Program-made: the position numbers and the translations under genes
In this document: piece by piece, positions 2,392 to 63,202 of the stretch
How the letters are laid out: every line of letters begins with the position of its first letter
Position numbering within the stretch: position 1 is the stretch's first letter
Source of the DNA: Pseudidiomarina aestuarii
Lineage (GTDB): Bacteria; Pseudomonadota; Gammaproteobacteria; Enterobacterales; Alteromonadaceae
Direction: 5' to 3'
Length of the DNA: 64,000 nucleotides
NCBI RefSeq assembly: GCF_003987355.1
Contig: NZ_PIPR01000001.1
Coordinates: 1,426,001-1,490,000, forward strand
Notes under the pieces: generated by a model
Seen by the model: the letters and a program-made list of their open reading frames with translations, nothing else
Database searches by the model: none
Told to the model about the DNA's origin: nothing

Positions 2392-2463
2392 GATACTAGC
2401 TACTGGTTACTAGCTAATGGCAACAGCACATCGCAAGGAACTCATTGCAAGTAGCCGTTAACG
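2392..2463. repeat. GYTAYTR heptad inverted-repeat element A (degenerate copy)
   Basis: The left arm holds four heptads in register: GATACTA, GCTACTG, GTTACTA and GCTAATG (2392-2419). The right arm holds two inverse heptads, AGTAGCC and GTTAACG (2450-2463). The core between them is about 30 bases and lacks the AGATCT centre seen in copies B and D. The element lies between the zapG stop codon and the rplM promoter. It is the most degraded of the six copies and would be doubtful without the others. Confidence 0.6.
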
Positions 2464-2466
2464 CAT

Positions 2467-2892
2467 TTAGTCCTTGGTGAACAGCTTTTGCTTTTTGTCG
2501 CTGTAGTCGCGTGGAGGTTCGCTAGCGTTTTCTTTCTCGCTACTACGGCTGCGATCACTGCGCGTGGTGTTGGCCATCCGAATTTGTCGAATGGTGTCTT
2601 CGGCGAAGAACGGCAAGCTCGGTTGCGTTTGTTCGCGCTGCAACAACTCACTGCTATTGGCTAAGTAGGCTTTCAGCTTCTCTTGCGTCTCTTCGAGTTG
2701 CTCTACTAAGGCGTTGGCGGTACTCAGATGTTCTGCAACTTCTTGCTGATACGCGGCAAATTGTTGCTTACTTTGCGTCACTTCTTCACTCAAGCGCGCT
2801 TCTTCTGAATGCTCATGCAGCCAGTAGCGGGCGACGAAAAAACCAATCACAGCACCCACGGCAACTAATAAAATGCCAATAATCCAGCTCAT
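2467..2892 (-). CDS. zapG: ZapG/YhcB family inner-membrane division protein (DUF1043)
   Basis: A 141-residue single-pass membrane protein: hydrophobic N-terminus MSWIIGILLVAVGAVIGFF, then a long Glu/Gln-rich coiled coil (about residues 30-95), then a charged, disordered tail ending KQKLFTKD. This is the YhcB (ZapG) layout; in E. coli the protein links cell elongation, division and envelope synthesis. I choose the ATG at 2892 because it has AAGGAG seven bases upstream and begins exactly at the membrane helix; longer in-frame versions lack support. It is divergent from zapE, 76 bases apart, as commonly seen in this class. Confidence 0.88.
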   Translation of the reverse strand: MSWIIGILLVAVGAVIGFFVARYWLHEHSEEARLSEEVTQSKQQFAAYQQEVAEHLSTANALVEQLEETQEKLKAYLANSSELLQREQTQPSLPFFAEDTIRQIRMANTTRSDRSRSSEKENASEPPRDYSDKKQKLFTKD

Positions 2893-2968
2893 AAACACTC
2901 CTTTACTGCGTCCTTCGCATGATAAACTCTTCCCTATAAGCATAATCCAGTTTGAGGTGGAAGTGGTA

Positions 2969-4078
2969 GTGACAAACGAAAGACTTAGCCCTATCGCCAA
3001 ATATGAGCGCGATTTAAGCAGTGGTGGTTTCACCCCAGACGCCGCGCAGCGAAAGGCTGTGGAGGCACTACAAAAGCTGTATGAGGCGCTAATTCAGTAT
3101 CGTGCAAAAGCAGACTGTGGCTTTTTCGGTCGTCTTTTTGGTTCATCGCCTCAACCACCTCAGGGCATTTACTTTTGGGGTGGTGTTGGACGTGGCAAGA
3201 CCTATTTAGTCGATACTTTTTTCGATGCCCTACCTTTTGAAGAAAAAATGCGCGTGCATTTTCACCGCTTTATGCAACGCGTGCATGCCGAACTGAAGCA
3301 ATTAAAAGGCCGCAGCGATCCACTGCCGATTATTGCGGATAAGCTGGCAGCAGAAACGCAAATCATCTGTTTTGACGAATTCTTTGTGCAAGACATCACC
3401 GATGCCATGCTACTCGGCACGTTGATGCAGGAACTATTCAAGCGCAATGTCGTTCTGGTCGCTACGTCAAACATTGTGCCTGACGAACTCTACAAGAATG
3501 GTTTGCAGCGCCAGCGCTTCCTGCCTGCTATTGCGTTAATCAAAGCCAATTGCGAAGTCATCAATGTCGACAGCGGCATTGACTACCGCTTGCGAACCCT
3601 CACCCGCGCCGAAATTTATCATTCGCCATTGGACGACGACGCGGATACCAATTTGAAGCGCTATTTCAGCGAGTTATCACCGGATCATTGCAGCCGCAAT
3701 ACCGACGGCACAGTGCACATCAACGGTCGTGACATTCCCGTGCGCCTCGAGTGCGATGATGTCGTGTTATTCGACTTTAAGGCTATTTGTGAAGGCCCGC
3801 GTTCCCAATACGACTACATCCAAATCGCCCACGAATATCACGCAGTTTTAATTAGTAATGTGCCGCAAATGGGCAGCAACAACGATGACGCCGCACGTCG
3901 TTTTCTCGCTCTCGTCGACGAGTTCTACGAACGCCGCGTCAAACTCATCCTCTCCGCCGCAGTGCCACTCGAGAACATCTACAGCGAAGGCAAGCTCAGC
4001 TTCGAATTCAAGCGCTGCATCAGCCGACTGCAAGAAATGCAGTCGCACGACTACCTGGCGCTGGCACACAAACCTTAG
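2969..4078 (+). CDS. zapE: Cell division ATPase ZapE (AFG1-like)
   Basis: AAA-type P-loop ATPase of the ZapE/AFG1 family, which acts at the Z ring under stress in E. coli. Walker A is GGVGRGKT (residues 71-78 from the chosen start) and Walker B is IICFDEFFVQD. The length of 369 residues matches the family. The start is taken as GTG at 2969, with GAGGTGG upstream. An ATG further upstream at 2873 would run back through the divergent zapG start and is unlikely. The TAG stop codon is the first triplet of heptad element B, so the repeat abuts the coding sequence. Confidence 0.92.
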   Translation: MTNERLSPIAKYERDLSSGGFTPDAAQRKAVEALQKLYEALIQYRAKADCGFFGRLFGSSPQPPQGIYFWGGVGRGKTYLVDTFFDALPFEEKMRVHFHRFMQRVHAELKQLKGRSDPLPIIADKLAAETQIICFDEFFVQDITDAMLLGTLMQELFKRNVVLVATSNIVPDELYKNGLQRQRFLPAIALIKANCEVINVDSGIDYRLRTLTRAEIYHSPLDDDADTNLKRYFSELSPDHCSRNTDGTVHINGRDIPVRLECDDVVLFDFKAICEGPRSQYDYIQIAHEYHAVLISNVPQMGSNNDDAARRFLALVDEFYERRVKLILSAAVPLENIYSEGKLSFEFKRCISRLQEMQSHDYLALAHKP

Positions 4079-4199
4079 CTATTGGCTATTGGCTATTGGT
4101 TACTGGTTACTGGTTACAAGAAAACAAAGATCTCCGCTTTTCAAGTAGCTAGTAACCATTAGCTAGTAGCTAGTAGCTAGTAGCTAGTAGCTAATAACG
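4077..4199. repeat. GYTAYTR heptad inverted-repeat element B (full copy)
   Basis: The left arm has three GCTATTG, two GTTACTG and one GTTACAA heptads (4078-4119). The core runs GAAAA ... AGATCT ... TTTTC (4120-4142). The right arm is eight inverse heptads (4144-4199), including AGTAGCT five times, AGTAACC and ATTAGCT, ending AATAACG. All units keep strict 7-base register. The arms are complementary in sense, so the element could form one hairpin of about 120 bases tipped by AGATCT. It starts inside the zapE stop codon. The right arm has five CTAG tetramers. Confidence 0.9.
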
Positions 4200-6851: not shown

Positions 6852-6931
6852 GCTACTGGCTATTTGTTACTGGCTACTCGAAAACAACAGAACAGCGCTT
6901 TTCTAGTAACTAGTATCTAATAGCTATTCGC
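6852..6931. repeat. GYTAYTR heptad inverted-repeat element C
   Basis: Left heptads GCTACTG, GCTATTT, GTTACTG and GCTACTC (6852-6879). The core starts GAAAAC and ends GCTTTTC. Inverse heptads AGTAACT, AGTATCT, AATAGCT and a partial ATTCGC follow (6905-6931). The core lacks the exact AGATCT centre but keeps the GAAAA/TTTTC arms. It fills the gap between the convergent degS and murA 3' ends, where no conventional terminator is visible. Confidence 0.85.
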
Positions 6932-52925: not shown

Positions 52926-54164
52926 ATGACCACTCAGTCACCACGATATTCCCGTGAATTTTTGCAAGCCATGCCGAAAGCGGACTTGCATTTGCATCTT
53001 GACGGTAGCTTACGTCCGGAAGGTTTGATTGAGATGGCAAAGCGCAGCAACATTGAGCTGCCTTCATATACCGTTGATGGACTCTATGACTTGGTCTTTA
53101 AAGAGTCATACAACAATCTCGGCGAATATTTGAATGGCTTTCAATACACCTGTGCCGTGTTACGGGATATGGAGAACCTCGAGCAAGCTTCCTATGAACT
53201 TGCCGTCGATAACCTTGCTGAAGGCGTTAATTACATTGAGGTACGCTTTGCGCCGCAATTAATGATGGATCCAGCACACGGAATCGATTTTGATACAGTC
53301 ATGCACACCACCAATCGCGGTCTAGCGCGCGCTAAAGCTGAGTACAACAATTCTACTGCGGTGAAAAATGGCGACAAGCCACCGTTCGATTACGGCATTA
53401 TCAATTGCGCGATGCGAATGTTTGGTAAGAAAGGCTTTTCACCTTACTACACCCAGTTGTTCCAAATGTTGCGTGACCATGAACCTAAGCAAGTCATCAA
53501 AGCCGCTGCGATGGAAATGATCCGCGCCAGCGTGCGCTTACGCGATGAAGAAGGACTGCCCATTGTTGGTCTTGATATCGCGGGTCAGGAAATGGGCTAT
53601 CCCGCGCACGACTTCAAAGAAGTGTACGAATACGCCCATCAAAACTTTTTACTGAAAACGGTTCACGCGGGTGAAGCATACGGTGCGGAGAGTATTTTTG
53701 AAGCCTTGACACAATGCTACGCTGACCGTCTGGGTCACGGCTACTCATTGTTCTCCCCGGAAATGATTCAAGACCCAGCCATTACCGACAAAAACGACTA
53801 TGCACGCCGGTTGGCGTCATTTATTGCGGATCGTCGCATTGCGATTGAGGTCTGTATTACCAGTAACCTGCAAACCAATCCTGCCATTGGCGATGTGAAA
53901 AATCACAACTTCAAGCACATGTACGCGAATCGTCTCGCGACGGTGATTTGTACTGACAATCGTCTGGTATCACGCACCACCGTCACGCAAGAATATGAAC
54001 TGGCATTAAGTACGGTAGACGTGCCACTGAAACGTCTCAAAGACATGGTTGCCTATGGCTTCAAGAAGAATTTCTTCCACGGCGACTACGTGGCAAAACG
54101 CGCCTATGCGAAACAAGTCTTGGAGTACTTCGATCGCGTCGCCGCGAAGCACAACCTGACCTAG
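52926..54164 (+). CDS. add: Adenosine deaminase family protein
   Basis: Metal-dependent purine deaminase of 412 residues, longer than E. coli Add (333). Zinc ligands H22 and H24 (KADLHLHLDGSL) and the later HAGE and LGHGYSLF motifs are present. The C-terminal metal motif reads CTDNRLVSRTTVTQEY: the zinc aspartate is kept, but the neighbouring residue is Asn instead of the usual second Asp. From memory this TDNRL(M/V)S form is also found in actinobacterial adenosine deaminases. GAGGAG precedes the ATG at 52926; a longer in-frame start at 52788 overlaps tdk. Its TAG stop opens heptad element D. Confidence 0.87.
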   Translation: MTTQSPRYSREFLQAMPKADLHLHLDGSLRPEGLIEMAKRSNIELPSYTVDGLYDLVFKESYNNLGEYLNGFQYTCAVLRDMENLEQASYELAVDNLAEGVNYIEVRFAPQLMMDPAHGIDFDTVMHTTNRGLARAKAEYNNSTAVKNGDKPPFDYGIINCAMRMFGKKGFSPYYTQLFQMLRDHEPKQVIKAAAMEMIRASVRLRDEEGLPIVGLDIAGQEMGYPAHDFKEVYEYAHQNFLLKTVHAGEAYGAESIFEALTQCYADRLGHGYSLFSPEMIQDPAITDKNDYARRLASFIADRRIAIEVCITSNLQTNPAIGDVKNHNFKHMYANRLATVICTDNRLVSRTTVTQEYELALSTVDVPLKRLKDMVAYGFKKNFFHGDYVAKRAYAKQVLEYFDRVAAKHNLT

Positions 54165-54278
54165 CTACTGGCTACTGGCTACTGGCTACTGGCTACTGGC
54201 TACTGGCTACTGGCTACTAGCGATTAGAAAATACAGATCTATGTTTTGCTAGTAACTAGTAACCAATAGCTAATAACG
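54162..54278. repeat. GYTAYTR heptad inverted-repeat element D (expanded tandem array)
   Basis: Seven identical GCTACTG heptads in a row (54164-54212), then GCTACTA and GCGATTA. A core GAAAA ... AGATCT ... TTTTGC follows (54227-54249), then inverse heptads AGTAACT, AGTAACC, AATAGCT and AATAACG (54251-54278). The left arm is longer than the right, and the perfect tandem run suggests recent slippage expansion. It overlaps the deaminase stop codon and ends two bases before the stop of the convergent peptidase gene. Confidence 0.92.
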
Positions 54279-62201: not shown

Positions 62202-62299
62202 GCTACTGGTTACTAGCTACTAGCTACTGGTTAATGGTTACTGGCGATTAGCTTTTGGTTTAGGTTTTACTAGTAACTGCTAACTAGTAGCGAGTAACG
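62202..62299. repeat. GYTAYTR heptad inverted-repeat element E (enters a coding region)
   Basis: Left heptads GCTACTG, GTTACTA, GCTACTA, GCTACTG, GTTAATG, GTTACTG and GCGATTA (62202-62250). A T-rich core follows, without AGATCT, then inverse heptads AGTAACT, GCTAACT, AGTAGCG and AGTAACG (62272-62299). The last two and part of the second lie inside the neighbouring gene on the minus strand, so they encode its final residues and stop codon. The element fills the convergent gap between glsA and that gene. Confidence 0.88.
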
Positions 62300-63079: not shown

Positions 63080-63166
63080 GATATTGGTTACTGGCGCTTG
63101 GCTACTGGCTATTTGCAAGTCGCCACTAGCCCATTGCTAATAGCTAGTAACCAGTAGCTAGTAGCG
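63080..63166. repeat. GYTAYTR heptad inverted-repeat element F
   Basis: Left heptads GATATTG, GTTACTG, GCGCTTG, GCTACTG and GCTATTT (63080-63114). A short core follows, then inverse heptads CATTGCT, AATAGCT, AGTAACC, AGTAGCT and AGTAGCG (63132-63166). The core lacks AGATCT. It lies between the tuf terminator and the solute-binding protein gene; both genes are on the minus strand, so it is downstream of tuf. Confidence 0.85.
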
Positions 63167-63171
63167 GTCAC

Positions 63172-63202
63172 AAAAAAAGGGAGCCGTTTAGGCTCCCTTT
63201 TT
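63172..63202 (-). terminator. Rho-independent terminator of tuf
   Basis: A 7-base GC-rich stem GGGAGCC/GGCTCCC with a 5-base loop, flanked by A and T runs; on the minus strand it ends in a run of seven T. It starts 14 bases after the tuf stop codon. Confidence 0.92.

Follow-up and report, generated by a model that had tools for sequence, protein, structure and literature searches.

The window, that is, the whole stretch of 64,000 nucleotides analysed here (G000:C1:1426001-1490000), belongs to a genome of 2.64 Mb in 12 contigs (G000). Five inverted-heptad elements (B to F), a degenerate half-element (A) and an inverted gene pair were located in it as follows:

2392..2460: half-element A, degenerate, immediately after the zapG stop codon and at the left end of the inverted segment
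2467..4078: inverted segment, with zapG (2892-2470, minus strand) and zapE (2873-4078, plus strand)
4078..4198: element B, with 6 forward heptads, the core GAAAACAAAGATCTCCGCTTTTC and 8 reverse heptads
6852..6931: element C, in the gap between the convergent genes degS and murA
54164..54277: element D, filling the convergent gap 54164/54281
62202..62298: element E, with a different core, located between two convergent genes (gap 62198/62284)
63087..63165: element F, with the variant core GCAAGTCGCCACTAGCCCATTGC, also present in a copy at G000:C1:1506004

The sequence-only reading of this stretch had proposed six places sharing one architecture, namely GYTAYTR heptads, a core and mirrored heptads. 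Five of them (B to F) were retained, the sixth (2392-2460) being at best a broken half whose folding is not better than that of shuffled sequences (z of -0.4). Element B was correctly described as 6 left and 8 right heptads around a core centred on AGATCT: its left arm (4078-4119) carries 1 mismatch, its right arm (4143-4198) 2 mismatches, and its core is the reverse of the family orientation. The G of the zapE stop codon TAG (4076-4078) is the first base of its first heptad; likewise, the first heptad of element D provides the G ending the stop codon TAG of the upstream gene, and the left arm of D has grown to about 9 GCTACTG-type heptads. Element E overlaps the 3' part of a minus-strand gene. 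As anticipated, the computed fold of B is one hairpin of -61.6 kcal/mol (z of -8.8 relative to shuffles); the corresponding z values were -3.05, -4.8, -3.0 and -3.9 for C, D, E and F, respectively. The proposed GAAAA...TTTTC core was recovered in B and C, while D has GAAAA...TTTTGC, and E and F have other cores. Runs of at least two exact heptads were found 4 times in forward and 3 times in reverse orientation in the window, making 2 forward-to-reverse pairs and no reverse-to-forward pair. A chance origin of these runs was rejected, 200 dinucleotide shuffles having produced no run on either strand.

Separately from element F, a strong hairpin with a T-run (AAAAAAAGGGAGCCGTTTAGGCTCCCTTTTT) follows it at window positions 63172-63202. 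The same beginning of this hairpin is found in L175, near G000:C1:1506090, after the copy at G000:C1:1506004, which adjoins a tRNA gene, and positions 518-574 of L175 match the Pseudomonas sRNA family P26 of Rfam, barely above the gathering score. In the window itself, Rfam 15 gave no match at the gathering threshold.

A 3-heptad pattern searched over the whole of G000 gave 155 and 110 overlapping matches on the two strands, and 0 and 0 for its reversed control. A covariance model built from the five window copies recovered at least 149 matches on both strands; as 150 of 623 candidates were scored, this and the other family counts are lower bounds. The stretches around the model matches, together with 11 control stretches (220 kb), were then scanned for in-register arms. 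From 86 candidates, 5 with an arm distance of 9 or 12 were left out as artefacts of plain tandem arrays, giving at least 81 elements. Forward-to-reverse pairs of exact runs were absent from the control stretches, and the element stretches outside the window contained 49 of them against 2 reverse-to-forward pairs. The dispersed family, which the earlier reading had made dependent on copies beyond the window, is therefore confirmed by these 81 copies, by the common asymmetric core and position-specific heptads described below and by relatives over most of the genus. As for the strict 7-base register of the earlier reading, the arms are 2 bases (mod 7) off in 51 of the 81 elements, about one in seven being expected, and the remaining 30 differ.

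The canonical unit spans 79 bp (28 + 23 + 28), with 4 heptads, the core GAAGAGCGYAGATCTGTGTTTTC and 4 mirrored heptads. When the elements were stacked in one orientation, in register with their forward arms, 39 of the 81 matched this core at 16 or more of its 23 positions, and 49 at 13 or more, scores of 13-14 being little different from those of the remaining elements. Two further elements, one of which is copy C, reach 17 and 19 positions one base off register, within a group of 32 elements with other or misregistered cores. Many copies are flanked in register by outer boxes, GAARAGC to the left of the unit and GCTYTTC to its right. From outside inward, the heptads are specific for their position, approximately GTTACTR, GCTATTA, GTTACTA and GYTACTA, followed by the mirror. 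The element is thus more defined than the "heptads around a core" first described. In expanded copies, a single arm can reach about 20 heptads, and a triple tandem copy with a period of 88 bp lies at C1:602738-602992.

Head-to-tail 7-nt units of varying copy number are also the mark of STRR/LSSR repeats, but here they are mirrored and enclose a core. Ordinary heptanucleotide microsatellites, mirrored by slippage and template switching, could produce arrays of up to about 20 heptads. Inverted GYTAYTR arrays in unrelated phyla (Bacteroidota, cyanobacteria and others) speak in the same direction; we counted at least 13 among the 120 stretches listed when a 5-heptad pattern was compared with one genome per species. 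Plain slippage would not give position-specific heptads, however, and the canonical 4 + 4 non-identical ordered heptads, the fixed 23-bp core and arms that change together between species make this origin quite improbable.

The position of the elements was analysed relative to gene borders set by a simple, crude gene caller. None of the 81 elements lies inside a called gene, and 3 are at stretch edges. The 78 others, which have two gene neighbours, comprise 24 convergent, 45 co-directional and 9 divergent cases. The corresponding gene pairs were 19, 114 and 22 in the control stretches, and 72, 353 and 73 in all stretches. The enrichment at convergent 3' ends that had been suggested for verification was thus observed (24/78 against 19/155 in the controls, p 1.3e-5, or 72/498 in all stretches), bearing in mind that regions free of model matches had been chosen as controls and that their convergent share may therefore be low. 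In the window, there are five convergent gene pairs, and all three with any gap hold an element. Neighbouring 3' ends are within 30 nt of an element in 60 of 93 cases, and 5' ends in 27 of 63. Among 19 genes overlapping an element, 15 stop at a TAG made at a heptad junction. Almost half of the co-directional copies (20/45) occupy short intercistronic gaps, with the next start codon exactly 17 nt on in 7 of the 20. The copies therefore sit after stop codons, between convergent genes or directly before the next ribosome-binding site. Of 162 flanks, 70 have TTTT in the 15 nt next to the arm on its outer side; for control 15-mers the figure is 78 of 770. The starts of contigs C1, C7 and C8 (L148, L188 and L190) fall inside 5S rRNA. 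About 60-230 nt after it, each has an element with another core, nearly the same in all three, which suggests that three rRNA operons are each followed by one copy.

Several copies were found inside operons. The isc operon, with gene names that we assume to be hscB, hscA and fdx, is split by two copies, in the order hscB, element, hscA, element, fdx; Pfam supports HscB, Hsp70 and ferredoxin at this place. One copy each was found at ndk-rlmN and yfgM-hisS, where HisS and NDK were recognised by Pfam and the identities of yfgM and rlmN are presumed. Bidirectional intrinsic terminators that evolved in place at the gene ends, growing by 7 nt at a time and never transposing, would explain the convergent enrichment, the outward T-runs, the stable hairpins and the elements that follow 5S rRNA where three contigs begin. 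Nevertheless, the common 23-bp core and the ordered heptads argue for shared descent, and the co-directional copies in short gaps, including those of hscB-hscA-fdx, as well as the copies of sister species at a tRNA-to-gene junction, fit poorly with this explanation. The short gaps, seven of the 20 with the start codon 17 nt on, leave little room for a downstream promoter, although a promoter within the element is conceivable. The isc copies are presumably read through, and their positions argue against strong termination; a pure terminator role is thus weakened, even if outward T-runs are still common. Altogether, independent terminators seem unlikely to us as the source of the family.

The spread of the family was examined with a model, R2, built from 37 of the 49 core-matched elements of G000. 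It matched 18 of the 26 genomes of the genus with E-values up to 0.01, and 76 genomes of the same family, drawn from 51 other genera, gave no match under stricter filters (E up to 1e-5). The eight genus genomes with no R2 match may have heptad alphabets that this model misses. The reversed 3-heptad control, with no match in G000, also matched several relatives (G025, with 23 forward matches, among them) because heptads such as GTTATTG read identically backwards. Matches from all 17 other R2-matching genomes were inspected; in G004, G005, G008, G012, G016 and G018, 18 of 20 loci show inverted heptad arms by eye, and for the remaining two (G005, at a contig end) the match itself was not displayed.

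Each group of relatives has its own heptads. G010, G017, G019, G022 and G023 share CAAGAGC-GATATTA-GCTATTG-GATATTA-GATATTA-core-mirror. The heptads are GTTAaTG-GATATTR-GATACTG-GATATTG in G002, GTTATTA-GCTATCA-GATAYTA-GTTATTR in G003, GTTGTTT-GCTATTT-GCTGTTT-GCTGTTC in G008, G016 and G018, GATGTTC/GCTGTTC in G004, GTTAYTC in G012 and GTTGCTG-GCTGCTC-GTTGTTT in G005. In other species, with heptads such as GATATTA, GCTGTTY, GATGTTY and GTTAYTC, the layout is thus kept and the letters are altered on both arms. A form common to these heptads is GNTRYTN, and the outer box of sister species is CAARAGC. Steps of 7 nt, as by slippage, and duplication of half-elements are visible in aligned relatives: at L205 (around 2012-2112) and L210, half-elements of about 41 bp (GATATTAGATATTAGAAAAGCAAGAACGATATTAGCTGTTA) are tandemly amplified beside a full element in G010, and right halves are repeated in G022. 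At the junction between a tRNA gene (CCA anticodon by eye) and the following gene, which we take to resemble secE (L220, L310, L306 and L216), a GATATTA element is found in three species, and a different inverted-heptad element occupies the same spot in G003.

Covariation between the arms was looked for as support for a selected hairpin. It is absent from G000, with 76.1% of cells paired against 76.4% after shuffling and an arm identity below that of shuffles (sets of 42 and 36 of 49), and is present in sister species. In the GATATTA clade, 27 of 56 sister elements were retained, with the intention of one per site, and arms matched within elements at 714 of 756 positions against 698.9 +/- 3.7 for shuffled pairs (reached in 0 of 5000 shuffles). 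As L203 and L306 (1992) are probably one site, the comparison was repeated with this duplicate and the tandem-amplified L205 removed; it gave 659 of 700 against 647.0 +/- 3.5 (1 of 5000). When orthologous elements were compared eight times, with some members used more than once, 427 of 448 positions were identical in the arms and 215 of 249 in the cores.

The hscB-hscA junction was compared in 24 genomes of the genus. G000, G010, G011, G022 and G024 have a GNTAYTR-type element at this place, which supplies the hscB stop codon in the last four of them; several of the other genomes have a GTAG-type REP or a different inverted repeat there, and some have little. G011 and G019 are 95.8% identical at the locus compared and yet have different occupants. 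Gene boundaries, including those of the isc operon, thus appear as places where palindrome families replace each other between close species. In G019 (L342 and L350), hscA contains inserted GTAG-type REP units (CCCGGCGTT...) that leave its reading frame open, and this insert adds to the chaperone a repetitive peptide PGGAAVN...SDIE of about 70 residues; the hscA open frames of G010, G011 and G022 also exceed 623 aa.

These comparisons bear on whether the host keeps each copy for a structural RNA, such as an mRNA 3'-end stabiliser or an RNase III site. In the GATATTA clade, the covariation of the arms and their higher conservation relative to the cores would be expected for such an RNA, but the lack of covariation in G000 and the replacement of one palindromic family by another at hscB-hscA between G011 and G019 leave this explanation with little probability.

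The elements share many features with REP/REPIN and MITE repeats: inverted repeats, a single hairpin, a size below 300 bp, many copies and an intergenic location. Mobilisation by a RAYT, as for REPINs, would agree with the inverted doublet of about 100 bp, intergenic and hairpin-forming, that the cited sections of PMC3116915 describe, and with the presence of a Y1 gene in 19 of the 26 genus genomes, including the element-rich G010, G017 and G019. However, no Y1_Tnp/RAYT gene was detected in G000 or in 6 of the 25 other genus genomes, among which are G005 and the element-rich G022, G023 and G024, and only 16 element matches were found in G014, which possesses five Y1 genes. The Y1 gene that the earlier reading had suggested looking for is thus missing from G000 itself and from several element-rich genomes. 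No GTAG or CGTC tag was found by eye at the base of the stem, oriented copies ending in GAARAGC/CAARAGC where conserved, and sister species have GTAG-type REPs as a separate set of repeats. Membership of REP/REPIN was rejected on these two defining features, the gene and the tag. Since element-carrying genomes lack Y1, mobilisation by a RAYT is a strained reading, and we consider it very improbable. No autonomous parent framed by half-elements was noticed around solitary half-elements in 665 kb of G000 stretches.

Two sites of the window were compared with relatives. The degS-murA gap is 17-110 bp long and element-free in 25 of 25 relatives, the element being found only in G000. Behind the adenosine-deaminase-like gene, at the site of element D, no element was seen by eye in 22 relatives. 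No clean target-site duplication was found, the relatives being too distant for the empty site to be read base by base. In the sister clade, copies at orthologous sites are often common to several members, so spreading is not fast there.

In each of the 24 relatives compared, zapE is directed away from both zapG and htrA, and the zapG-zapE pair is inverted in G000. Both ends of the inversion carry element sequence: half-element A follows zapG, and element B follows zapE. Between zapG and htrA, a GATATTA element is found in 4 of 24 relatives and a GTTATTC/GTTGTTC-type element in 3; in G003, an element occupies the interval from zapE to rplM, where the other breakpoint lies in the ancestral order. 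We infer that recombination between two copies inverted the segment, which would tie such elements to local gene inversion.

Taken together, these results point to a non-autonomous palindromic repeat family, restricted to the genus and working like REPINs or MITEs, which we hold to be the probable explanation. Its unit consists of an outer box GAARAGC, four ordered GNTRYTN heptads and a core of about 20-31 bp, after which the four heptads and the box return in mirrored form. Copies would be scattered into gene boundaries, between convergent stop codons or from a stop codon to the next ribosome-binding site; after insertion, the arms would change by whole heptads through slippage and by tandem duplication of half-elements of about 41 bp, and copies may serve as homology for local inversion, as for zapG-zapE. 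In a transcript, the copy would fold into a long hairpin, in many cases followed by a U-rich tail. Such a hairpin could act as a two-way 3' end or terminator between convergent genes, and inside operons, where it is presumably read through, as a processing or stabilising stem.

Published repeats resemble this family in part. Like REPINs and REPs in the cited sections (PMC3116915, PMC3733652), it has an inverted doublet around a spacer, about 100 bp long, intergenic, hairpin-forming and found in tandem clusters; it differs by the lack of RAYT/Y1 in G000, by the lack of a GTAG/CGTC tag and by arms of four heptads, the stems of REPs being described there as short. For REPINs, excised circles or linear hairpin intermediates are reported (PMC3116915). 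BrickBuilt of Porphyromonas gingivalis is presented in the cited section as a tandem repeat inside a MITE (PMC4596501). Our elements are likewise small, non-autonomous and intergenic, with inverted ends and tandem units, but the tandem units are themselves the inverted arms and measure 7 rather than 23 nt; a target duplication or parent transposon, as for MITEs, was not seen here. The inverted heptad form, for which the earlier reading named no precedent, has one in the P6b stem of the Nostoc trnL intron, where in-register 7-nt repeats of two classes replacing each other occupy both sides of the stem and its length changes by 7 nt; this is, however, one group I intron locus, with motifs TDNGATT and NNTGAGT, and not dispersed as far as the cited text goes (PMC4476775). 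Heptamers are also known as TAACTGA in Beggiatoaceae, with 169 direct sets and one indirect set (PMC4679880), and as GGGNATC in Xanthomonas and Nostoc (PMC4692102). They are 7-nt units, dispersed and mainly intergenic, but in the cited sections they are direct repeats without a core.

At the level of search listings, the literature on Idiomarina repeats and inverted heptamers gave no matching repeat, and the cited sections of the REPIN, REP, BrickBuilt, P6b and heptamer papers do not describe this one. With no Rfam match in the window either, the expectation of an uncatalogued repeat held, and the family is apparently undescribed, set apart from published repeats partly by the descriptions in these sections. 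A well-defined family of dispersed palindromes is thereby available in most of the examined species of one genus, with species-specific alphabets and several RAYT-less species. With it, two questions become testable: the way in which short palindromes spread without RAYT, and the reason for the repeated appearance of 7-nt units among bacterial repeats.

One bolder possibility is a class of mobile palindromes without a tyrosine transposase, possibly copied from arm to arm in 7-nt steps by hairpin-primed replication, a process that might also have given rise to the unrelated inverted-heptad palindromes of Bacteroidota, cyanobacteria and other phyla. Such copying, if true, would explain why both arms of an element carry the heptad alphabet particular to its species; for now we regard the idea as rather doubtful. 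Among the matches listed, the inverted arrays of unrelated phyla are all forward-then-reverse, and several surround GC-rich hairpins. GTTATTR arrays lengthen both sides of such hairpins in L012, L005, L034, L057 (the Bacteroidota MAG USDV_maxbin.037) and L082, as in the GC-rich hairpin with heptad arms GTGTGGTA...TACCACAC of L005. These heptad-extended hairpins are apparently an independent inverted-heptad design in another phylum.
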